16,909 bases of DNA from Chloroflexota bacterium (GTDB taxonomy: Bacteria; Chloroflexota; UBA5177; JANWHV01). The position numbers and the translations under genes were made by a program. The notes under the pieces were generated by a model, which ran no database searches, was not told the DNA's origin, and saw only the letters and a list, made by a program, of their open reading frames with translations. Each line of letters begins with the position of its first letter. Positions within the stretch are counted from its first letter, which is position 1. The stretch lies in assembly GCA_025924845.1 (NCBI GenBank), contig JAICHN010000058.1:1-16909 (forward strand), in the 5' to 3' direction. Of the stretch, positions 4,319 through 15,899 are shown one piece after another.

Positions 4319-5014
4319 CTATGACGTGCAAGTCCCTTCACCGCAACCGCAGCCGCCATGCCCGGCCCTTGCAGCTCCCAGGGCCTCGCGCGCTTCGTGC
4401 CCAAGCCAGTAGAGCAAGGCCAGGGCGGCCACGCTGTCCGCCCACCACCAGCCCAGAGCGGCATTCAGCAGCAGCCCGACCAGCAGGGCGCCCGCCATGT
4501 AGGCGCAGGTGATCGAGCAGGCTGCATCACCGCGCAACGCGGCGCTGTTCAGTTGACCGGCGATACGTCGCTTGCGGCGGGCCAAAATGGGCATGCCGAT
4601 GACCGCGGCGAGAGCAACGGCTATGCCTGCGTAAGAGCGATCGGGATCGGCGCGGGTCAACAACGCAGCAAAAGCGCTGACCACGATGTAGAGGCAGAGC
4701 AGGACCAGCATCACCCCTGTGATCCAGGCGGCGCGGTTCTCAGCGCGTTCCACGCGTTCCATGGTACCGCCGTGCGCCTCGGTCAGCAGGCGCCGGAGCA
4801 GCACGACACCCGCTGCCAGCTCGATCACGCTGTCGAGGCCGAAGGCGATGAGCAGCACGCTATGCGCGAGCAGGCCCGCGCCTATGGCCACGGCGGCCTC
4901 CACCGCCATCCATGCAATAGAGACCAGTTCCACATGCACGCCGGCCCGTACAGAGGCGCCGCGCACACGAGCAGGCTCATCTGATGTCGCGACACCGTTC
5001 AGGGCAACGGTCAT
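4319..5014 (-). CDS. Small CDF-like cation transporter with Cys/Gly-rich tail
   Basis: Multi-span inner-membrane protein resembling the short cation-transporter branch of the cation diffusion facilitator family, which lacks the cytoplasmic C-terminal domain. From the ATG at 5014 (231 aa) about six hydrophobic segments are visible. The membrane metal motif FGLDSVIEL supplies D61 and E65; a second set of polar residues, D163 and C166/C170 (RGDAACSITC), sits in a later helix, followed by ADSVAAL. The last residues are GHGGCGCGEGTC, a probable metal-binding tail (C222, C224, C229). A TTG 12 nt upstream (5026) is an alternative start, but neither has a strong ribosome site. It begins 15 nt after the stop of the upstream CzcD-like gene, so it is third in the ArsR-led operon. 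Probable role: divalent-metal efflux; metal not determined. Confidence 0.82.
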   Translation of the reverse strand: MTVALNGVATSDEPARVRGASVRAGVHVELVSIAWMAVEAAVAIGAGLLAHSVLLIAFGLDSVIELAAGVVLLRRLLTEAHGGTMERVERAENRAAWITGVMLVLLCLYIVVSAFAALLTRADPDRSYAGIAVALAAVIGMPILARRKRRIAGQLNSAALRGDAACSITCAYMAGALLVGLLLNAALGWWWADSVAALALLYWLGHEAREALGAARAGHGGCGCGEGTCTS

Positions 5015-5029
5015 CGCCCGCCCCAACCG

Positions 5030-6046
5030 TTAGCCATGCACATGCATCCCGTCCGCGACGTGCTCATGCCGCTGTTGACCAGGGGCATGGCGAGGCCTGC
5101 CACGATCGTGGGCTGCTTCCTCATCGGCCATGCCGCCGCAATACAGTTCAGCCGACTCATGGCGGTCACAGCAGGCATATTCGAACTGAATAGTGCTGTG
5201 ACCGATGTTGTAGCGGTTCGCCAGCAGCGTATTCACCTGCTCCAGCAGGCCATCGCAGGCGGAAAGCGGGCAATCGTCGGCGACCTGCACGTGGGCCGAA
5301 AGGGCGGTCATACCGCCCGCTATAGACCAGACATGTAGATCATGCACATCGGTAATCCGAGGCACCGCTACGATGTCCCGGGCCAGCTGCTCCACGGCAA
5401 TACCCTTCGGTGTGGCCTCCATCAGGATGCCCATTGTCTCGCCCAAAATGCTCCAGGCGCCGAACGCAATCAACACGGCGATGAACAATGAGATCAGCGG
5501 ATCGGCGGGATACCAGCCGGTGGTCAGGATCACCAGGCCGCCGACGATCACGCCCACCGACGCGCCCACGTCACCCAGCACATGGAGCATGGCCGCGCGA
5601 ATGTTCAGATTCGCCCCGCCCTCCTTATGGAAACCGAAGGCGATATAGAGGTTAACCGTAATGCCCACGGCGGCGGAGACGAACATCAACCACGGGGTAA
5701 CCTTGTCGGGATGCTGGAAGCGCCCGATCGCCTCGTAGACGATAAATAGGACGATCAGGATAAGGGTGACGGCGTTGGCCAGGGCGGCAAGGATCCCGGT
5801 GCGATGGTAGCCGTAGGTCTTGCGGGCATCGGCCGGCCGCTCGGCCTGGGCGGCGGCAAACCAGGCCAGGCCCAGGGCGAAGATGTCGGTGAGCACGTGG
5901 CCGGCATCGGCAAGCAAAGCCAGGGAGTGGGATAGGACCCCGCCCGTCAGTTCCACCGCCAGAATGATCGCCGTCAGCAGGAAGGCGGTACGCAGCCGCT
6001 TGCCGGTCATGTCATGAGCGTGGTCGTGATGGTGCGAGGCACTCAT
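5030..6046 (-). CDS. Cation diffusion facilitator (CzcD/ZitB-like) Zn/Cd/Co efflux transporter
   Basis: Proton-coupled exporter of Zn(II), Cd(II) or Co(II) in the cytoplasmic membrane. The 338-aa protein starts with a His-rich cytoplasmic segment (MSASHHHDHAHD). Six transmembrane segments follow. The two halves of the transport site are intact: H50-x3-D54 (DAGHVLTD, TM2) and H155-x3-D159 (LHVLGDVGAS, TM5). The cytoplasmic domain (about 205-290) carries the TDVHDLHVWSI motif. The C-terminus is unusually long and rich in Cys and His (CCDRHESAELYCGG, later HEHV and GMHVHG), which suggests extra metal binding. The ATG overlaps the ArsR stop by one base (TGATG), implying translational coupling to the sensor gene. 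The assignment to the CDF family is firm. Confidence 0.95.
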   Translation of the reverse strand: MSASHHHDHAHDMTGKRLRTAFLLTAIILAVELTGGVLSHSLALLADAGHVLTDIFALGLAWFAAAQAERPADARKTYGYHRTGILAALANAVTLILIVLFIVYEAIGRFQHPDKVTPWLMFVSAAVGITVNLYIAFGFHKEGGANLNIRAAMLHVLGDVGASVGVIVGGLVILTTGWYPADPLISLFIAVLIAFGAWSILGETMGILMEATPKGIAVEQLARDIVAVPRITDVHDLHVWSIAGGMTALSAHVQVADDCPLSACDGLLEQVNTLLANRYNIGHSTIQFEYACCDRHESAELYCGGMADEEAAHDRGRPRHAPGQQRHEHVADGMHVHG

Positions 6047-6462
6047 CAGCGCACTCCGGCGCTCGCGGCCGAGGCGGCGATGTCCGTGATGCCGGCGTCC
6101 TCCTCGTGCCCGAGGTGGACCAGTCCGATCTGTACCAGCAGATCGATGTGAGCATCGTCCAGGCTGTAGTAGACGAACTTTCCGGCCCGGCGTTGCTTCA
6201 CCAGGCGCAGCGAACGCAGCACCCGCAAATGCTGCGAGACGCCCGATTCGGAAACTCCCACCACGGCGGCGATGTCACAGGTGCATAACTCCTGGTGCCG
6301 CAGGATATGCACGATCGCGGCGCGGGTGGCATCGGCCAGGGCGCCGAATAGCTCGGCGAGCTCGATATACGTATCGTCCTCGTGCAGAAACGAGCGCGCC
6401 CGCGCGACATCTTCGACATGAATGCAGCGCTCCTGACAGGTCTCGGCGCCGGCTCGGAGCAT
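6046..6462 (-). CDS. ArsR/SmtB-family metal-sensing repressor (CadC/CzrA-like)
   Basis: Winged-helix dimeric repressor expected to leave its operator when metal binds. I start at the ATG at 6462 (138 aa) because GGGGAGA lies 9 nt upstream; an ATG at 6480 has no ribosome site. The N-terminal pair C9-x3-C13 and C60-T-C62 in the ELCTCDI helix have the same spacing as C7/C11/C58/C60 of CadC (thiolate site for Cd, Pb, Bi, Zn). The last helix holds D103, H105, H116 and H119, the spacing of the CzrA alpha-5 zinc/cobalt site (D84, H86, H97, H100). The recognition region is VGVSESGVSQHLRVLRSL. It leads the operon with the two transporters and likely represses it through the dyad at 6504-6518. CadC comparisons are from memory of the family. 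Confidence 0.95.
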   Translation of the reverse strand: MLRAGAETCQERCIHVEDVARARSFLHEDDTYIELAELFGALADATRAAIVHILRHQELCTCDIAAVVGVSESGVSQHLRVLRSLRLVKQRRAGKFVYYSLDDAHIDLLVQIGLVHLGHEEDAGITDIAASAASAGVR

Positions 6463-6503
6463 ACCGGTTATTCTCCCCATAAATAGTTCATCAATTGCGT
6501 GAT

Positions 6504-6518
6504 CACTACATCATAGTG
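6504..6518 (-). promoter_or_regulatory. Dyad operator with -10-like element upstream of the ArsR operon
   Basis: The inverted repeat CACTA-N5-TAGTG lies 42 nt upstream of the preferred ArsR start. On the minus strand the dyad contains TATGAT, a 5/6 match to a -10 box, so a bound repressor would cover the promoter. No good -35 is seen 16-18 nt upstream. This fits autoregulation by the ArsR protein but is unproven. Confidence 0.45.
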
Positions 6519-6553: not shown

Positions 6554-6778
6554 GGAGCGTCACGGGCGCGCCAGTGCCTCGGGCAACATATGATAGCCCT
6601 CGACGGTGTGTACAAAGACCCAGGGGTGGACAACCTTGCTGCCGCCCGCCACTACACTCTGTCGTAGGTTCTCGGCCCGTGGTCCGAGCCGGCCGACAAG
6701 GGTCGCGATTGTATCGGTGTGCTTGGGAGTACCGAGCGCTGCCGTGGGTCGATGACTTGAGGGTCTCTCGGTATTTGC
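6554..6778 (-). other. Protein-like open frame without a start: possible gene remnant in the ArsR-BlaI gap
   Basis: The 397-bp gap 6463-6859 has no convincing complete gene. One minus-strand frame stays open for about 74 codons after an in-frame TAG near 6778 and ends with TGA at 6554-6556. Its last half reads like ordinary protein: LGPRAENLRQSVVAGG, then SKVVHPWVFVHTVEGYHMLP and EALARP. No ATG with a ribosome site precedes it. It could be the decayed 3' end of a gene, or chance. A 94-codon frame overlapping it (6531-6815, minus) has poor composition and I reject it. A dyad, CTACA-N6-CGTAG (6652-6667), also lies in this gap. Confidence 0.25.
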
Positions 6779-6803
6779 GCGCTACGATGCAGTGTCGTAG
6801 CAT
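6775..6803 (+). promoter_or_regulatory. blaI promoter with embedded dyad operator
   Basis: TTGCGC (6775-6780) and TAGCAT (6798-6803) are 17 nt apart. A perfect dyad, CTACGA-N7-TCGTAG (6782-6800; 7 bp per arm counting the flanking G/C), fills the spacer. Its placement between -35 and -10 is typical of an autorepressor operator, and CTAC/GTAG half-sites resemble those of BlaI/MecI operators. Transcription would start near 6810. Confidence 0.55.
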
Positions 6804-6859
6804 GGAGCAGAACATGTGATGCTTCCGACGCCAGGCACGAGAAAAGGGATGGCCCCGAC

Positions 6860-7264
6860 ATGACCGATCACGAAGGCGGGACGCTCGGCCTGGGCGAATT
6901 GGAAGCCGCGATTATGGAGGTGGTCTGGGCTCGCGCCCCGATCACCGTGCGCGAGGTGTTGGGTGAACTCAGGCGTTCGCCCCGGCCGGGCTACACTACC
7001 GTGGCCACGGTGATGAATCGCTTGGTCGACAAGAGGATTCTCCAACGGGCACGCACAGGCAAAGTGGATGTCTACCAGGCTCCTATGACCAGGGAACAGT
7101 TCATGCGCCAGGTGGCCGCCACCGCGGTGAATCGGCTGATCACGGAGTGTGGCGACGTGGCGCTGGTGCAGTTCGCGGCCGCGCTGGAGCACGCTGATCC
7201 AGCGCGGCTTGCCCGTCTTCGGGAGCGATTAGCCGAGCAGCCGGCGGAGGCCGCCGATGCGTAG
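6860..7264 (+). CDS. BlaI/MecI/CopY-family transcriptional repressor
   Basis: 134-aa winged-helix repressor of the BlaI family. The family controls beta-lactamase, copper homeostasis or envelope-stress genes and is inactivated by proteolysis or by metal. The DNA-binding region spans about 10-70: LGELEAAIMEVVWARAP, then ITVREVLGELR, then the recognition helix YTTVATVMNRLVDKRIL. The C-terminal half is the helical dimerisation domain. The position that aligns with the Asn-Phe cleavage site of BlaI appears to be Q104-F105 (ALVQFAAALE), so the scissile bond may differ. No CopY-type C-x-C metal motif is present. Ribosome site AAGGGA lies about 10 nt upstream. It overlaps the M56 peptidase gene by 8 nt, the standard blaI-blaR order. 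Dyads with CTAC/GTAG half-sites precede it. Confidence 0.95.
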   Translation: MTDHEGGTLGLGELEAAIMEVVWARAPITVREVLGELRRSPRPGYTTVATVMNRLVDKRILQRARTGKVDVYQAPMTREQFMRQVAATAVNRLITECGDVALVQFAAALEHADPARLARLRERLAEQPAEAADA

Positions 7265-8195
7265 CCTGCTGATCGGGCTCGTGCTTTGGCTGACCGCCAC
7301 GGTGTGGCTGATCACACTCCCTGCGCCGCGGGCGGTCCATTGCCTCATGGTGGCCAACTGCCAGGCAGGCGTCACTGTTTGGTCGCAGCTCTGCAACGGC
7401 CTCATCTTCGGCGGCGCCGGCCTCGGCCTCGTGCTCGTGGCACGGATAGCCCTGAGCATACGCCGCCAGATCCGCGGCACCGCTCACACCCTGGCGCCCG
7501 TGCTCTCGCTCCTCAGAGCCTCGCTTCCGCACGATCTTCATGCTCGCCTCCGCGGGTCTGGGCCGTTGACGGTCGTGGTTGATTGTCAAGAGCCGCTGGC
7601 TCTGTGCCATGGCCTAATGCGCCCGCGTATTCTGTTGTCCACCGGCTTGCTCCGCAACCTATCTCAAGACGAAATCGAGGCGGTGTGGCGGCACGAATGG
7701 GCCCACTGCGTGCGGCGCGATCCGCTTCGCTTGGTCGCGGCGCGGGCCCTAGCCGAGGGATTTCCCGGTGTGCCGCTCTTGCAAAGGATTGCGGCGGTGG
7801 CGCCGGTGGCGCAGGAACTCGCGGCGGACCGCTCCGCTATCCGGGTCGTTGGCACGGAGGCGCTGGGCCGAGCCTTGCTCAAGGTAGGAGATGCCCAGGG
7901 GTCATTGGCAGGCCAAGGGCTTGCAATCGGCGCCTTCAGTGCGGTCAACGCTCGATCAGATCAACTTCTAGTGGACGCTCGTTTGGATCAGCTTCTTGGT
8001 GAGACGCCTCGCATCGAGCTGCCTACATCCAGGGCACTCTTGCCCGCGGCGGTGCTTCTTCTGCTCATTCCAGTTCTCTGTATCGGACTCTCGTTCACCT
8101 GGTGCGTCGCGCTGGTACCGCCGCTCGCGATCGCCGCACGGATACAATCGCTCCGCGCGGGCGCGGAACCCGCCTCGGTCATTTCACCAAGTTAA
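7257..8195 (+). CDS. M56 family (BlaR1-like) membrane zinc metalloprotease without sensor domain
   Basis: 312-aa integral-membrane peptidase, the expected partner that relieves repression by the upstream BlaI protein. N-terminal hydrophobic segments lie near 4-21 and 43-66. The zinc site is H146-E147-W-A-H150 in WRHEWAHCVRRDPL, with the probable third ligand E187 in the QELAAD motif. The family segment CHGLMRPRILLSTGLL precedes it (117-132). A hydrophobic segment at 260-290 is followed by only about 20 residues. BlaR1 and MecR1 end in a penicillin-binding sensor of about 250 residues; that is absent, so the signal is not a beta-lactam sensed in this polypeptide. It starts inside blaI, overlapping by 8 nt. 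Its stop overlaps the convergent redoxin remnant by 17 nt. Confidence 0.92.
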   Translation: MRSLLIGLVLWLTATVWLITLPAPRAVHCLMVANCQAGVTVWSQLCNGLIFGGAGLGLVLVARIALSIRRQIRGTAHTLAPVLSLLRASLPHDLHARLRGSGPLTVVVDCQEPLALCHGLMRPRILLSTGLLRNLSQDEIEAVWRHEWAHCVRRDPLRLVAARALAEGFPGVPLLQRIAAVAPVAQELAADRSAIRVVGTEALGRALLKVGDAQGSLAGQGLAIGAFSAVNARSDQLLVDARLDQLLGETPRIELPTSRALLPAAVLLLLIPVLCIGLSFTWCVALVPPLAIAARIQSLRAGAEPASVISPS

Positions 8196-8437
8196 TCGCT
8201 TGGACGATCTCCGGATAGCTGAGCGGTCCCAAGTGGGCCTGTCGTATAATGCCGCTCGCATCCACGACCAAGGTGAACGGGATGTTGGCTGCGTGGTAGG
8301 TAATGAGCGAGACGTGGAGCACGGGATCCAGGAGAAGTGGGTCGGTGACGCGCACCTGGCGGGCATACCGCGTCATCGTTGTGCGGTCCTCTCCTCCGGC
8401 ATCGATGCCGAGAACCAGCGGCGCCTTCGAGCCGCGG
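8179..8437 (-). pseudogene. C-terminal remnant of a TlpA/ResA-like thioredoxin-fold protein
   Basis: The frame ending with TGA at 8179-8181 reads as the C-terminal half of an AhpC/TSA- or TlpA-type redoxin: PLVLGIDAGGEDRTTM, then ARQVRVTDPLLLDP, the cis-Pro segment IPFTLVVDASGIIRQ and HLGPLSYPEIVQAINLVK. The N-terminal half with the catalytic W-C-x-x-C motif is absent. Upstream of about 8437 this frame runs antiframe through ccdA and yields Arg/Pro-rich sequence with no redoxin character. The similarity therefore starts abruptly where that of ccdA ends. It has no start codon of its own and lacks the active site, so I call it a pseudogene fragment left by a deletion. ccdA followed by a redoxin is a usual gene pair for extracytoplasmic thiol reduction. 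Confidence 0.7.
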
Positions 8438-9092
8438 ATAACAAGCTGATAAAGCCAAAATACCGGTTGAGCGAGCGCAGGAATCCGGCTAGTCCCCCGA
8501 CGGCGAACGCGACGGCCAGGAATGGCAGGCCAAGGCCTAGGGCATAGGCCGGCAGCAGCACGACGCCCTGAGCTAGGGTGTTGCCGGCGGCGCCCAGCAG
8601 CAAAATCAATCCCAATATCGGCCCCACGCAAGGCGTCCAGCCGGCCCCGAATGCCAGACCGAGCAAGGCGCTGCGGAGTAAACTACCCTCCCCGAATGGC
8701 GACCCCCGTGGGCGCCACTCACGATATAACCATCGCAGGCGTAGCAACCCCGATGTGTGAAGCCCAAGAACGACGATGACGATCCTGGATAACTGGCGCA
8801 CCGTGATCAGGTGAGCGCGCAACAAGCCGCCCAGCACGCTTGCATTTGCGCCAAGTGCCACGAACACCAGGGCGAAGCCCGTCACGAAACAGATTGCGTG
8901 CGAGACCACGAGCCAACGTCCCGGCGCTGGTCGAGATGAGGGCGGTCCATTCGCCGCGTCGGTGGTTGACGAAGAGGCGCTGGCTGAGATACCCGACAGG
9001 TACGATAGATACATCGGGACCAGCGGCAAGCAACGTGGCGAGATAAAAGAGAGAACCCCAGCCACGACGGCGAGCACCAACTCTCCCAACAT
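8373..9092 (-). CDS. ccdA: Truncated CcdA/DsbD-type transmembrane thiol-electron carrier (probably non-functional)
   Basis: CcdA passes electrons from cytoplasmic thioredoxin across the membrane to extracytoplasmic redoxins. Five hydrophobic segments match the family: LVLAVVAGVLSFISPRCLPL (6-25), 65-92, about 100-118, SALLGLAFGAGWTPCVGP (141-158) and 173-200. C155 in the second half is intact. In the first half the motif is SPRCLPL where the family has SPCVLPL: R20 sits at the expected cysteine position and C21 is one residue later. The sixth segment stops after FGFISLLS (about 219) and is replaced by an Arg-rich tail that ends at 8373, in a frame different from the redoxin remnant. The ribosome site at 9092 is weak. 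The open frame is intact, but truncation and the altered motif suggest loss of function. Confidence 0.7.
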   Translation of the reverse strand: MLGELVLAVVAGVLSFISPRCLPLVPMYLSYLSGISASASSSTTDAANGPPSSRPAPGRWLVVSHAICFVTGFALVFVALGANASVLGGLLRAHLITVRQLSRIVIVVLGLHTSGLLRLRWLYREWRPRGSPFGEGSLLRSALLGLAFGAGWTPCVGPILGLILLLGAAGNTLAQGVVLLPAYALGLGLPFLAVAFAVGGLAGFLRSLNRYFGFISLLSAARRRRWFSASMPEERTAQR

Positions 9093-9221
9093 AGTGAGGC
9101 ACCGTTTCCCACGCGGGCGCGCATCCTACGGGGGCTTCTATCCGGGGCGCGATGGGGCTACGTCCCGCGGCCGGCCGGCCTTGCGTTCCCCAATCGTCTT
9201 GGCTCGGCTGGGGCGGCTTGC

Positions 9222-9263
9222 TTGGTATGGCTCCGGCACGTAGTATACTACGCAACGTCGTAG
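9222..9263 (+). promoter_or_regulatory. Promoter with clustered CTACG/CGTAG half-sites before the His-rich protein gene
   Basis: TTGGTA (9222-9227) and TATACT (9244-9249) are 16 nt apart. The -10 lies inside a perfect 14-bp palindrome, CGTAGTATACTACG (9239-9252). The right half of that palindrome also forms CTACG-N6-CGTAG (9248-9263), so three half-sites are stacked over the -10 and start region. The arms match the dyads before blaI (6652-6667 with N6, 6782-6800 with N9). This suggests control of the downstream gene by the BlaI-type repressor; the link is inference. Confidence 0.5.
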
Positions 9264-9301
9264 TTAGGTAGAGCACTGGAATGACATGAGGAGAATGGAA
9301 G

Positions 9302-9919
9302 ATGACACAACAGCCTACATCCCACCCCAAGCGGCGGCAAGAGCGTGCGGGTCACCGGGAACGTCGAGAGGCGGCGGCGCGCCGGCGAAGGCGTATGCGT
9401 CTGGGCTGGGCGGCTGCCGGCTTGGTGGTGGCGCTTGGCCTGATCGCTCTTGTCCTCTGGAGCAGCCTGTCCGGCTCGAGCAATGCCGATCCAATCATCG
9501 ACGGAGTACAGTGCAATGCCAACGAGCAGCTCGTCTACCACATCCATGCGCACCTCACTATCTACGACGCAGGCAAGCCGGTGACCGTGCCCCAGGGCAT
9601 CGGCATTGACCAGAAGAACAAATGTATCTACTGGCTGCATACGCACGACACCAGTGGAGTTATCCATGTGGAGTCGCCTACCGAGAAGCAGTACCCGCTG
9701 AAGACCTTCCTCGACATCTGGGGGCAGGCAGTGAATAAAACCGCCTTCCTCACACACGGTATCGCGGCCGGCCACAGCGTTCGTGCCTATGTGGACGGCG
9801 CTCTCTATCGCGGGGATCCTCGGACTATCCTTCTCACGCCGCACAAAGTCATCACACTCGAATATGGGCCGCCCTGGATCACTCCCGACTCCTCCTATAG
9901 CTTTCCCGGCGGGGAATGA
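9302..9919 (+). CDS. Membrane-anchored His-rich extracytoplasmic protein of unknown function
   Basis: 205-aa protein with an Arg/Lys-rich cytoplasmic N-terminus (1-33), one transmembrane helix (about 34-54) and an extracytoplasmic domain, probably held by an uncleaved signal anchor. The domain has HIHAHLTIY (H80, H82, H84), a long CIYWLHTHDTSGVIHVESP block (C108, H113, H115, H122), then FLDIWGQ, HGIAAGHSV and a conserved-looking AYVDGALYRGDPRTI segment. C71 and C108 could form a disulfide. I have seen similar His-rich domains in Chloroflexota, actinobacterial and archaeal proteins but know no assigned function; metal binding is plausible. AGGAG lies about 8 nt upstream of the ATG. The permease gene follows 90 nt downstream with no terminator visible between, so the two are probably co-transcribed. 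Confidence 0.85.
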   Translation: MTQQPTSHPKRRQERAGHRERREAAARRRRRMRLGWAAAGLVVALGLIALVLWSSLSGSSNADPIIDGVQCNANEQLVYHIHAHLTIYDAGKPVTVPQGIGIDQKNKCIYWLHTHDTSGVIHVESPTEKQYPLKTFLDIWGQAVNKTAFLTHGIAAGHSVRAYVDGALYRGDPRTILLTPHKVITLEYGPPWITPDSSYSFPGGE

Positions 9920-10009
9920 GATCATTAACCTACCCAGCCGCCCAGTAAGGGTGCAGGGGTAGCCGCGGCCATCCCGCACGGGCGGTTGCTTTCAACATAG
10001 GGTGGCACT

Positions 10010-11197
10010 ATGAAGATCTTCACCGCTATCGGCCCGGCACTGCGCGAGGCATTAAACATGTCCTGGGAGGTTTTCTGGCCGCTCGTGCTTGGTTTCGGCC
10101 TCTCCTCAGGCGTCCAGGCGCTGGTCTCCCACAAAACCATGGCCAGGCTGCTGGGCGACGACTCGCCCCGGAGCCTTACCCTGGCCACGCTCTTCGGCGT
10201 CGCCTCCAGTTCCTGCTCCTATGCCGCCGTCGCGCTCGCCCGCTCCATCTTCCGCAAGGGCGCGAGCTTTACGGCGGCGATGGTCTTCGAGCTGGCCTCG
10301 ACCAACCTGGTGATCGAGCTGGGGATTATCCTGGTAGTACTTATGGGACCATCATTCGCCGCCGCTGAATACCTGGGTGGCCTTGTGATGGTGATCGGAA
10401 TCGCCCTATTGTTCCGGCTGACCCTGACGCCGCGGCTGGTGAGTCTGGCGCGGGAGCATGCGGAGCGGGGTGCAAGGGGCCGCATGGAAGGTCACGCCAC
10501 CATGGATATGAGCGTGGAGGGCGGACCGTTCCTGTCTCGCCTGCTCAGTGGGCGCGGCTTCACCGCGATCAGCCACCTGTTCGTCATGGACTGGGCATCG
10601 GTCTGGCTCGATGTCGTCGGCGGCTTTCTGATCGCGGGCGCGCTCGCCGCCTGGGTGCCTGAAGCCTTCTGGCACGACTTCTTCCTCGCCGGTAACCCCA
10701 CCCTGGCCAAGATCGAGGGACCGCTGGTCGGCCCCCTCATGGCCATCGCGAGCTTCGTCTGCTCGGTCGGCAATGTCCCGCTGGCGGCGGTGCTCTGGCG
10801 CGGGGGAATCAGCTTCGGCGGGGTCGTCTCCTTCATCTTCGCCGACCTAATTGTGCTGCCCGTGCTCGATATCTACCGCCGCTACTATGGCGGGCGCGTC
10901 GCCCTCTATCTCCTGGGCACGTTTTATGTCACCATGGCCTTCGCCGGCTATCTGGTAGAGGTCGTATTCGGTGCCCTGGGCATTATCCCGACCAGCCGCG
11001 CCATAAGCGCGATCGATCAGGGACCTACTTGGAACTATACGGCCGTGCTGAATATCATCTTCCTGATGGTGGCAGTCATTCTGGTCGCTCGCTTCCTGCG
11101 GACGGGCGGCCCGGCGATGTTGCGGATGATGAGCGCATCCAGCGACGCCACGCCCATGGACCACGATGGCCACGGCGGATCGGCGATGCAACATTGA
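10010..11197 (+). CDS. ArsP/UPF0718-family permease (SO_0444-like metal efflux candidate)
   Basis: 395-aa inner-membrane permease of the PF03773 type, with about eight to ten hydrophobic segments. Conserved features include LLGDDSPRSLTLATLFGVAS, SSSCSYAAVALA (C69) and, in the second half, the pseudo-repeat SFVCSVGNVPLAAVL (C251), which resemble the paired cysteine motifs of this family. The linker at 149-172 contains H150, M159, H162, M165 and M167. The C-terminal tail has M383, H385, H388, M393 and H395. Both are plausible soft-metal (Cu/Ag/Zn) binding segments. Family members export trivalent organoarsenicals (ArsP) or copper/zinc (SO_0444 type); the substrate here is not established. The ATG at 10010 has a modest GGGTGG ribosome site. 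It follows the His-rich protein gene and is probably in its operon. Confidence 0.88.
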   Translation: MKIFTAIGPALREALNMSWEVFWPLVLGFGLSSGVQALVSHKTMARLLGDDSPRSLTLATLFGVASSSCSYAAVALARSIFRKGASFTAAMVFELASTNLVIELGIILVVLMGPSFAAAEYLGGLVMVIGIALLFRLTLTPRLVSLAREHAERGARGRMEGHATMDMSVEGGPFLSRLLSGRGFTAISHLFVMDWASVWLDVVGGFLIAGALAAWVPEAFWHDFFLAGNPTLAKIEGPLVGPLMAIASFVCSVGNVPLAAVLWRGGISFGGVVSFIFADLIVLPVLDIYRRYYGGRVALYLLGTFYVTMAFAGYLVEVVFGALGIIPTSRAISAIDQGPTWNYTAVLNIIFLMVAVILVARFLRTGGPAMLRMMSASSDATPMDHDGHGGSAMQH

Positions 11198-12239: not shown

Positions 12240-12401
12240 TTAACTGAGTTACAGTGGATGCCCACGAACCGGAGAGCGATAGCGCGCGGTCGGTCGCGAT
12301 TGGGTGAGATTGGCAGTCCAGTGCAATTACTGCTAGCCCGCTATGATATCCTCACCGGAGGATGGGGACGACCGCTAAACGGCCGCCCACCATGAAAAAT
12401 A
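12240..12401 (+). other. Non-coding part of the EamA-hsp20 divergent gap
   Basis: Divergent gap 12148-12537 is 390 bp. Its ends hold the EamA promoter (12196-12239) and the hsp20 operator/promoter (12402-12456). Between them I see no gene, tRNA or strong hairpin; the only short frames are Arg-rich and lack ribosome sites. Confidence 0.6.
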
Positions 12402-12456
12402 CTTGCAAGTATAGTACTCAAGTGTATTGACATGACTACCGTCCCTATGCTATAGT
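12402..12456 (+). promoter_or_regulatory. hsp20 promoter with HAIR-like (HspR) inverted repeat
   Basis: A near-canonical sigma70 promoter has TTGACA (12427-12432), an 18-nt spacer and TATAGT (12451-12456). Five bases upstream of the -35 is CTTGCAA-N7-ACTCAAG (12402-12422). The HAIR element bound by the heat-shock repressor HspR is CTTGAGT-N7-ACTCAAG: the right arm matches 7/7 and the left arm 4/7, with exact N7 spacing. The overlapping ACTTGCAAGT (12401-12410) is itself a 10-bp palindrome. Heat-shock control by an HspR-type repressor is inferred. Confidence 0.6.
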
Positions 12457-14869: not shown

Positions 14870-15739
14870 CTAACCACCGGTCGGAGTCACGGCGGCGGCG
14901 TGAACCACGGAGGGCGGATGATGATCGGCATTGAGCGACATGGTAATCTGAGGCGAGGCGATGATATGGTCCGCGGACGTACTGGTGATCGCCGTGCCCA
15001 CGGCAAGAAACTCGATCACGTGGCTGCTCCAGCTATGCGTACTCTCGTGGATGTTGGCACCGACAATCCCTTCGGCCCCTACCGCGTCCGCTTCATGCTG
15101 CATGCGCTCCATGGCCACCTCACGGGCATCATACAGAGCCTGCGTGAAGTTCGGCATCTCCACGTTCCTCCCGATCTGCTGAAACCACTGCCCGAATGAC
15201 TGGTGCGCCACGTGGTACACGCAGGTACCGAACACGAGGGCGATCGGCATATAGCCGGCGCGCAGGAGGGTCCAGAAGTCCTGCCCGGAGAGGTCGGAAG
15301 TAAAGGGCTTGCCGTTCGGCTGACGACGACTCCGGCCGTCGCGCGACTTCACGGCGGTGCCGATCGCCTTAAATTCGGCCAGATTGGCGCCCCAACTGTA
15401 CCGCCCTACCACCAGGCGTACCCCGACCACGCCGTCCGCCCCCAGCACATGCGCTTCCTCTTCCATGCGCCGCATTGCCAGTTCACGCGCGTGATACATG
15501 GCCTGGGTGAGCACATCCATCTCCATGTTCTGGCGGAGGCGGGCCACTTGCAGGCCGATATGGTAGATACTGGTGCCGACCACCAGGCCCAACGGTTCGA
15601 AGCCGGCCTCCTTTACCAGGAGAAACTCGCTGACCGTCAGATCGCTGGTAAAAAGCTGTTTCCTTCCGCCCTCGCCGCGCATCCCCCGCAAGCGCTCCAG
15701 GGCATGTGGTGGTATGCCTTGCTCCTGTTCGGCGGCCAT
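14870..15739 (-). CDS. Tandem YbjQ/UPF0145-type (putative heavy-metal-binding) domain protein
   Basis: 289-aa soluble protein made of two copies of a YbjQ-like domain (PF01906 type). Copy 1 is about 28-131 and copy 2 about 144-252, aligned through FTSDLTVSEFLLVKEAGFEP/FTSDLSGQDFWTLLRAGYMP, VVGTSIYHIG/VFGTCVYHVA, TQAMYHARELAMRRM/TQALYDAREVAMERM and GADGVVGVRL/GAEGIVGANI. The C-terminus (about 253-289) is low in order with several His. I chose the ATG at 15739 because AAGGAGG lies about 9 nt upstream; a start at 15781 would add an Arg-rich run. The family is often named 'heavy-metal-binding' from its oligomeric structure, but no biochemical role is established; only one Cys is present in copy 2. 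It is divergent from the M24 peptidase gene. Confidence 0.88.
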   Translation of the reverse strand: MAAEQEQGIPPHALERLRGMRGEGGRKQLFTSDLTVSEFLLVKEAGFEPLGLVVGTSIYHIGLQVARLRQNMEMDVLTQAMYHARELAMRRMEEEAHVLGADGVVGVRLVVGRYSWGANLAEFKAIGTAVKSRDGRSRRQPNGKPFTSDLSGQDFWTLLRAGYMPIALVFGTCVYHVAHQSFGQWFQQIGRNVEMPNFTQALYDAREVAMERMQHEADAVGAEGIVGANIHESTHSWSSHVIEFLAVGTAITSTSADHIIASPQITMSLNADHHPPSVVHAAAVTPTGG

Positions 15740-15899
15740 GAACTGCTCCCTCCTTCGGCGGCCGGTTCGAGCGGCCGGCAATCGCCAGGTTCAAGGTACC
15801 GCGAATCCGCGTATGAACCGCGCTCGCTGTACCATGAGCGTGGATGGACACGAGAATACCTGATCCGGATCGCGTTGAGTACACAGGGAGTGTGAGGCG

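Follow-up and report, generated by a model that had tools for sequence, protein, structure and literature searches.

A candidate copper and thiol-stress regulon with a BlaI–M56 pair and an unnamed His-rich membrane-anchored protein in a Chloroflexota bacterium

In a 16,909-nucleotide stretch of the genome of a Chloroflexota bacterium (contig JAICHN010000058.1; 'the window' below means this whole stretch), genes for a BlaI-type repressor and an M56 membrane protease lie next to genes for a CcdA-type thiol-redox protein, an unnamed His-rich protein of 205 amino acids (H205) and a permease of family PF03773 (Table 1). We propose that this island is probably a stress regulon for copper (possibly for soft metals more widely) and thiol redox that is switched by BlaI and M56. 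The proposal builds on the genes themselves, on an operator type that they share and on the enrichment of this operator type with copper and thiol genes in relatives. A preliminary description of the window had suggested a metal or redox switch; comparison upholds the metal or redox link, with copper as the most likely metal, and the shared operators, and does not uphold BlaI, M56, H205 and the permease as a conserved block.

The repressor–protease pair and its candidate operators

The repressor belongs to the BlaI/MecI/CopY family by its PF03965 match (E 3e-24; 85.9 bits against a gathering score of 22.6) and falls outside CopY/TcrY, because its TIGR02698 score of 46.3 bits lies below the equivalog cut-off of 121.95. 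Its single Cys is residue 97, and a Cys scan revealed no CXC motif. The partner protein carries a BlaR1-type protease domain (PF05569, E 1e-7) with a HEWAH active site at residues 146–150, and HExxH is present in all 23 aligned M56 sequences, including that of the window. Four transmembrane segments are predicted, and the loop between the first two, which presumably faces outward, holds C29, C35 and C46 (transmembrane and Cys scan). This loop contains Cys in 15 of the 23 sequences, ten of which have at least two.

The island resembles BlaI–BlaR1 and MecI–MecR1 in that repressor and M56 genes stand side by side and in the presumed release by proteolysis. It differs in that no penicillin-binding sensor domain was found on the 312-residue M56 protein (Pfam at E 0.01 returned M56/M48 families only) and in that no β-lactamase is present among the 19 window open reading frames (ORFs) scanned against Pfam. 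On the repressor, the overlapping sensorless protease and the missing β-lactamase the preliminary description was thus accurate. With only the family names speaking for it, a classical β-lactam resistance switch is hardly credible here.

CopY/CopR of Firmicutes share with the island the DNA-binding family, dyad operators and copper-stress genes. The C-terminal CXC motifs of CopY bind metal, according to PMC7253601, whereas the window BlaI lacks CXC and has an M56 partner; the cop-box core KACANNYGTM has no exact match in the window. Because both the CXC motif and an exact cop-box core are missing, copper sensing would most likely fall to M56 rather than to the repressor.

The dyads CTACGATGCAGTGTCGTAG (6782–6800) and CGTAGTATACTACGCAACGTCGTAG (9239–9263), which had been placed at the promoters of blaI and of the His-rich gene, are both present, and a third similar site lies between arsR and blaI. 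At the divergent ccdA/H205 promoter, the candidate operator is overlapped by the –10-like hexamer of a sigma-70-like promoter match. The pattern YACKAY-N5-GTCGTAG, allowing up to one mismatch, gave four matches at three places in the window against 0.07 expected in shuffles, a post hoc figure in that the pattern was derived from the window itself. A pattern built on the relatives' sites (10 or more of 12 positions, spacer 5–7) found four sites (6650, 6783, 9246 and 12400) against 0.92 expected, with at most five sites in 60 shuffles of the window; three of the four fall at the blaI and ccdA/H205 promoters. The site at 12400–12416 is weak (10/12) and lies around 80 bp upstream of an Hsp20 open frame.

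Operators and gene neighbourhoods in relatives

We drew on a sample of 251 Chloroflexota genomes, in which the permease subfamily occurred in 52, H205 in 64 and a window-similar BlaI in 64. The LepA encoded in the window matches ten genomes of this sample at 67–72%, in keeping with a likely Chloroflexota origin of the DNA. Twenty window-like BlaI loci (L222–L241) comprised 14 from the 15 best by similarity rank, the second place of G082 being omitted, and six lower-ranked ones (G035, G214, G107, G202, G200 and G174). They were set against 20 other-BlaI loci (L282–L301; 31–35% identity, ranked between the two window-like groups) and 20 arbitrary regions, 2–16 kb long and drawn from the same genomes, for the most part from the beginning of contig 3.

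Many blaI promoters in relatives carry TACTAY-N6-RTAGTA dyads, sometimes with N5 or N7. Scored as TACTAY-N4..7-RTAGTA with at least 11 of 12 matches, dyads occurred in 16 of the 20 window-like loci (29 sites in 245 kb), compared with 2 of the 20 arbitrary regions (2 sites, 207 kb) and 4 of the 20 other-BlaI regions (5 sites, 297 kb). The contrast held for the 14 loci chosen by rank only, ten of which had dyads (p = 4e-4 against arbitrary regions and 4e-3 against other BlaI). One count gave 71 dyad matches against 4.7 expected (overlapping registers included), an excess that is partly post hoc because the spacer came from inspecting the relatives' sites. The dyad pattern was chosen after viewing the relatives, and the controls therefore weigh more than the raw counts; the comparison of the three locus sets and the scan of H205 and permease upstream regions given below test it more fairly.

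Genes for copper handling and thiol repair followed the same distribution. Such markers were found in 11 of the 20 window-like loci (25 genes) and in none of the 20 arbitrary or 20 other-BlaI loci, and 7 of the 14 rank-only loci had them (p = 6e-4); this contrast may partly reflect paired versus unpaired BlaI, because only 2 of the 20 other-BlaI loci show an M56 match. Published work reports that copper strongly induces both tlpA and the multicopper oxidase gene copO of Corynebacterium glutamicum, which supports grouping TlpA and CcdA with copper genes. In Actinomycetota, where near relatives of BlaI were taken from 20 of the 23 top-ranked places (G428, G280 and G385 were passed over), markers were present in 8 of 15 M56-paired loci against none of five unpaired ones, a comparison without a random control. 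The M56 loop gave a lead only: in the 19 of 20 window-like loci that bear M56, loop Cys occurred in 8 of 10 with copper or thiol markers and in 3 of 9 without (p = 0.055).

Individual loci illustrate how the dyads are placed. They adjoin blaI in, for example, L223, L227, L237 and L261, and stand just ahead of TlpA in L226, L235, L237 and L243. In L227, which combines a P-type ATPase, DUF305 and BlaI–M56, a dyad lies between the divergent DUF305 and blaI frames; in L237, dyads lie near each of the units CsoR–ATPase, M56–BlaI and two TlpA frames. A dyad directly precedes the multicopper oxidase frame of L240, and in L241, with BlaI, TlpA and CcdA, one lies about 0.6 kb upstream of TlpA. An actinomycetotal locus (L326) reads TlpA, TlpA, BlaI, M56, CopC–CopD, CsoR and ATPase.

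Three further loci (L242, L243 and L244) were chosen for BlaI near the permease or beside H205. L244 holds BlaI–M56, CcdA, TlpA, CsoR, the permease and an HMA-type ATPase within 11 kb, and a dyad separates TlpA from CsoR–permease; L243 holds CcdA, TlpA, M56–BlaI, the permease and CsoR. In L242 (genome G069), CopC–CopD, BlaI and H205 occur together and dyads are found both at blaI and ahead of the H205 unit, H205 lying between blaI and the second site; elsewhere in the same genome (L249), two dyads stand ahead of a run of DUF2933, H205, TlpA and CcdA. On plasmid pMYCCH.01 of Mycolicibacterium chubuense, H205 adjoins BlaI and M56, TlpA, CadD and a P-type ATPase, and the palindrome TACTAT-N12-ATAGTA occurs three times in 12 kb: before blaI–M56, before the H205 operon and before MPT63. 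Its spacer is unlike the Chloroflexota type, and no palindrome of this kind was found beside H205 or BlaI in eight other plasmid loci searched likewise.

H205, the permease and the flanking genes

H205 consists of an N-terminal membrane anchor (one predicted transmembrane segment, residues 34–52) and an extracytoplasmic, β-grasp-like domain with HIHAH at residues 80–84 and LHTHD at 112–116, in agreement with the preliminary description. It matched no Pfam (E 0.01) or PHROG family, and NCBIfam gave only low N-terminal matches (19–21 bits against cut-offs of 55–100). DUF4430 (PF14478) and the transcobalamin β domain (PDB 3u7z, 5no0) are among the closest known systems; for DUF4430, H205 gave no Pfam match at E 0.01. 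The family, of which we found 2437 proteins, has a near-invariant set of H80, H82, H84, H113, H115, H122, E124 and H181, each kept in 115–125 of 126 sequences, and C71/C108 are present in most.

On plasmids, metal genes lay within 5–6 kb of H205 in 8 of 13 annotated loci opened, and BlaI/M56 in four (14 of 20 listed records were opened; H43, H45, H46, H51, H54 and H57 were skipped as unannotated or near-duplicates). Across 80 genome loci (735 kb), a copper or thiol marker lay within 5 kb in 11 and BlaI within 5 kb in six; the permease occurred in one, CcdA in three and a BlaI-like match anywhere in nine (Eremiobacterota and WPS-2). Clustering of the neighbours in these 80 loci yielded lineage-specific groups, the largest present in 15 and none an obvious metal family. 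In Ferroacidibacillus (L061), an H205 copy adjoins a cluster of copper oxidase, CsoR and ATPase.

Several side observations concern this family. H205 stands beside multicopper oxidase or CopC-type genes in a Rubrobacteraceae metagenome-assembled genome and two Nitrosotalea genomes (L004, L052 and L063). On two Pseudarthrobacter plasmids (L304, 4809–5432; L309, 5058–5411), a homologue lies directly 3' of merA–merB and is possibly an accessory mercury protein. An H205-like domain match falls within a gene of an Anoxybacillus plasmid that bears the annotation skfF (L302, 3393–5429), possibly a fusion of the domain to a membrane protein. In two phyla, the frame immediately preceding H205 encodes a small Met-rich membrane protein with CPxxMxxMM (L087, 5501–5695; L303, 4396–4569; L249, 8439–8660); that of L249 matches DUF2933, and that of L087 matches no Pfam family.

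The permease is a member of PF03773 (E 4e-64; 217 bits against a gathering score of 32.3). SO_0444, ArsP and SaoE belong to the same Pfam family, but the window protein scores 51.4 bits for SO_0444-family Cu/Zn efflux (NF033936, cut-off 300) and 49.3 bits for SaoE (NCBIfam cut-off 325), far below either threshold. C69 and C251, invariant in 51 sequences, are a feature of the window subfamily. Of the His/Met-rich linker and tail to which attention had been drawn, the linker (159–167) is conserved, with M159, H162, M165 and M167 in 88–94% of the 51 sequences, the window's included; the tail is not (H385 in 47%, H388 in 33% and H395 in 4%). Of 40 Chloroflexota permease loci, eight have a CsoR-type repressor as the permease's immediate neighbour, each with the Tyr-Cys ... 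His-x3-Cys pattern that marks copper CsoR; a further CsoR match beside a permease, in L151, proved spurious and is not counted here. Six permease plasmid loci were opened, of 131 matching records (40 listed): three contain copper clusters, one an ATPase accompanied by ArsR and a CsoR-type regulator, and two nothing telling.

Within the island, the CcdA/DsbD_TM gene (PF02683, 36 bits against a gathering score of 27.1) lies inside the range that had been singled out and was overlooked there. A redoxin-like frame overlaps it in another frame; with neither a CxxC nor any Pfam or NCBIfam match found, it looks like a truncated remnant. To the left, arsR and two CDF-family genes look like a separate metal unit beside the BlaI island, with a dyad, ACTACATCATAGT, at 6505–6517 upstream of arsR. 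By NCBIfam, the first CDF transporter passes the CDF superfamily cut-off and fails the ZitB equivalog cut-off, and the second passes neither. To the right lie genes for an EamA transporter, Hsp20 and a YbjQ-type putative heavy-metal-binding protein.

Table 1 Coordinates of genes and candidate regulatory sites in the window
Feature	Position	Strand	Remark
BlaI/MecI/CopY-family repressor gene	6860–7264	+	PF03965; 134 aa
M56 membrane metalloprotease gene	7257–8195	+	PF05569; 312 aa; 8-base overlap with blaI
CcdA/DsbD_TM-type thiol-redox membrane protein gene	8373–9092	–	PF02683; divergent from H205 gene
H205 gene (205 aa, membrane-anchored)	9302–9919	+	No Pfam or PHROG family
PF03773 permease gene	10010–11197	+	Pfam profile match
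Candidate BlaI operator, some 60 bp ahead of blaI	6783–6800	Reads on both strands	TACGAT-N5-GTCGTAG
Candidate BlaI operator, ccdA/H205 divergent promoter	9239–9263		Palindrome CGTAGTATACTACG and TACTAC-N5-GTCGTAG
Weaker candidate operator, arsR–blaI intergenic region	6650–6667	+	CACTAC-N5-GTCGTAG
Sigma-70-like promoter, TTGGTA-N16-TATACT	9222–9249	+	Pattern match, 9/12
Redoxin (TlpA)-like C-terminal frame	8179–8520 (ORF 8179–8631)	–	Identified by eye
ArsR/SmtB-type metalloregulator gene	6046–6480	–	NF033788, 94.4 bits; cut-off 55 exceeded
Two CDF-family cation transporter genes, first ZitB-like	4319–6046	–	PF01545
Protein with two YbjQ_1 ('putative heavy-metal-binding') stretches	14870–15781	–	PF01906

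Alternatives and a proposed copper switch

A number of results weigh against a copper regulon, and they begin with gene order. The window's exact gene set and order is not conserved, and we rejected BlaI–M56–H205–permease as a conserved block: of the 251 genomes, only the seed genome G001 (L021) places H205 next to the permease, and it was selected for this adjacency. The conserved neighbourhood that the preliminary description had proposed to look for was not found in these genomes. H205 and the permease lie 11.6 kb apart in G025; BlaI adjoins H205 only in G069, and it lies within 3–6 kb of the permease in two genomes (G061 and G198) and 15 kb from it in a third (G142). By genome, BlaI showed no excess of co-occurrence with H205 (16 against 16.3 expected) or with the permease (13 against 13.3), and no match to the window M56 was found in G069 or G001. 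Permease and H205 themselves co-occur in 36 Chloroflexota genomes against 13.3 expected, a figure uncorrected for kinship. Within 350 bp upstream, a strong operator was found for none of 52 permease genes and, with the window counted in, for no more than 3 of 119 H205 genes with distinct upstream regions. The spacer is 5 in the window operators as against 6 in most relatives, and the sites on the blaI side match at only 10/12. Six of the 20 window-like loci were lower-ranked picks, five of which come from genomes with H205 or the permease, and 69 of the 80 H205 genome loci had no copper or thiol marker within 5 kb. Taken together, the absence of a conserved block, the lack of co-occurrence with BlaI and the few H205 promoters with a dyad could mean that blaI–M56 regulates only itself and that the H205–permease pair is an unrelated metal set that happens to lie alongside. 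We consider such a chance neighbourhood quite improbable, given matching operators at both window promoters and, independently, in M. chubuense and G069.

The closest kin of the window BlaI also count against copper. Five loci (L222, L223, L224, L228 and L230), with the three nearest relatives of BlaI among their number, showed no copper or thiol marker in the stretches read, and the M56 loops of all five lack Cys. The Pfam neighbours in L222, L223, L228 and L230 are pyridoxal phosphate-dependent enzymes of the cysteine-synthase superfamily, Rrf2, ThiS, ferredoxin, EamA or HTH-TPR, hinting at a sulfur branch of BlaI–M56 regulation. These genes near blaI, the L,D-transpeptidases near mycobacterial loci and the share of TlpA/CcdA frames among the markers (13 of 25 in the 20 window-like loci) would fit a general envelope thiol or sulfur stress response: M56 would monitor disulfides or the state of the cell wall, and the metal genes would be there by coincidence. 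We regard this as unlikely, because copper-type genes occur in many loci and because H205 and the permease occur in metal clusters. Our preference for copper in this window comes from the presence alongside of CcdA, H205 and the permease, as well as from the wider BlaI–M56 pattern, not from the closest kin.

Finally, the ZitB-like and ArsR neighbours in the window and the mer loci of H205 leave room for other metals, and members of PF03773 are known for organoarsenical export. The same machinery might thus answer to zinc, mercury, arsenicals or several soft metals, with copper as one inducer or none, a minority possibility that we nevertheless take seriously. Against it stand the many copper-type markers at window-like BlaI loci (CopC/CopD, DUF305, multicopper oxidase and HMA-ATPase) and the copper ligand pattern of the CsoR beside the permease.

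On balance we favour the copper and thiol-redox regulon and infer for it the following switch, in which BlaI binding, M56 cleavage, the signal, the bound metal, the direction of transport and the co-transcription of H205 with the permease are all putative; the functions of the island and of H205 are assigned from sequence. In unstressed cells, a BlaI dimer would occupy TACTAY-N5-RTCGTA operators over the blaI–M56 promoter and the divergent ccdA and H205–permease promoters. Excess copper, or copper-caused disulfide damage outside the membrane, would be sensed by M56, perhaps through the Cys residues of the loop that joins its first and second membrane segments. The protease would then cleave or inactivate BlaI and the genes would be switched on: the His cluster of H205 would bind metal outside the membrane, the permease would move it and CcdA would supply reducing power for thiol repair.

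The principle of a protease-switched copper response is already known from PetR/PetP and, in part, from CopY. In Synechocystis, the BlaR-type protease PetP degrades the BlaI-family repressor PetR when copper is present, according to reviews, one of which states that copper binding by PetR is unknown. The window shares with this system the pairing of a BlaI-family repressor with a BlaR-type membrane protease. It differs in its targets: PetR/PetP controls plastocyanin and cytochrome c6, with no copper-homeostasis response driven by the pair in the account of one review, whereas no plastocyanin or cytochrome c family was found among the 19 window ORFs scanned. The CopRS regulon of C. glutamicum (copO, tlpA and copB), as published, resembles the island in that copper induces TlpA, a multicopper oxidase and an ATPase together, and differs in having a two-component switch instead of BlaI–M56. 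What BlaR homologues do in heterotrophic marine species 'remains to be elucidated', in the words of one review, and the literature that we searched yielded no paper on BlaI–M56 control of copper genes in heterotrophs. By analogy, the window and its relatives would fit the missing heterotroph case, copper detoxification under BlaI–protease switching. The island had been called undescribed, which holds for the H205 family (it has no name to search by) and, within the literature searched, for the regulon; it does not extend to the copper-answering CopY and PetR/PetP, which are published.

We tentatively extend this reading, with less confidence than we have in the window itself: BlaI–M56 pairs may be a widespread extracytoplasmic copper and thiol-stress switch of heterotrophs (Chloroflexota and Actinomycetota), with a Cys-loop M56 sensor and control over copper detoxification and disulfide repair, and H205 may be the first singled-out member of a large family of extracytoplasmic β-grasp metalloproteins that serves partly in copper and mercury handling. 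The names BlaI and M56/BlaR invite a reading as β-lactam resistance, and such annotation may mislead, because the genes here more likely mark a copper and thiol-stress circuit. On the role of BlaR homologues in heterotrophic marine bacteria, which the review leaves open, the analysis offers candidate operators and candidate target genes, together with a sensor loop that lends itself to testing. The most interesting part of the island is the H205 family: large, unnamed and partly metal-linked, it is singled out here by seven near-invariant His residues and one Glu, and part of it lies beside copper, mercury and P-type ATPase genes.

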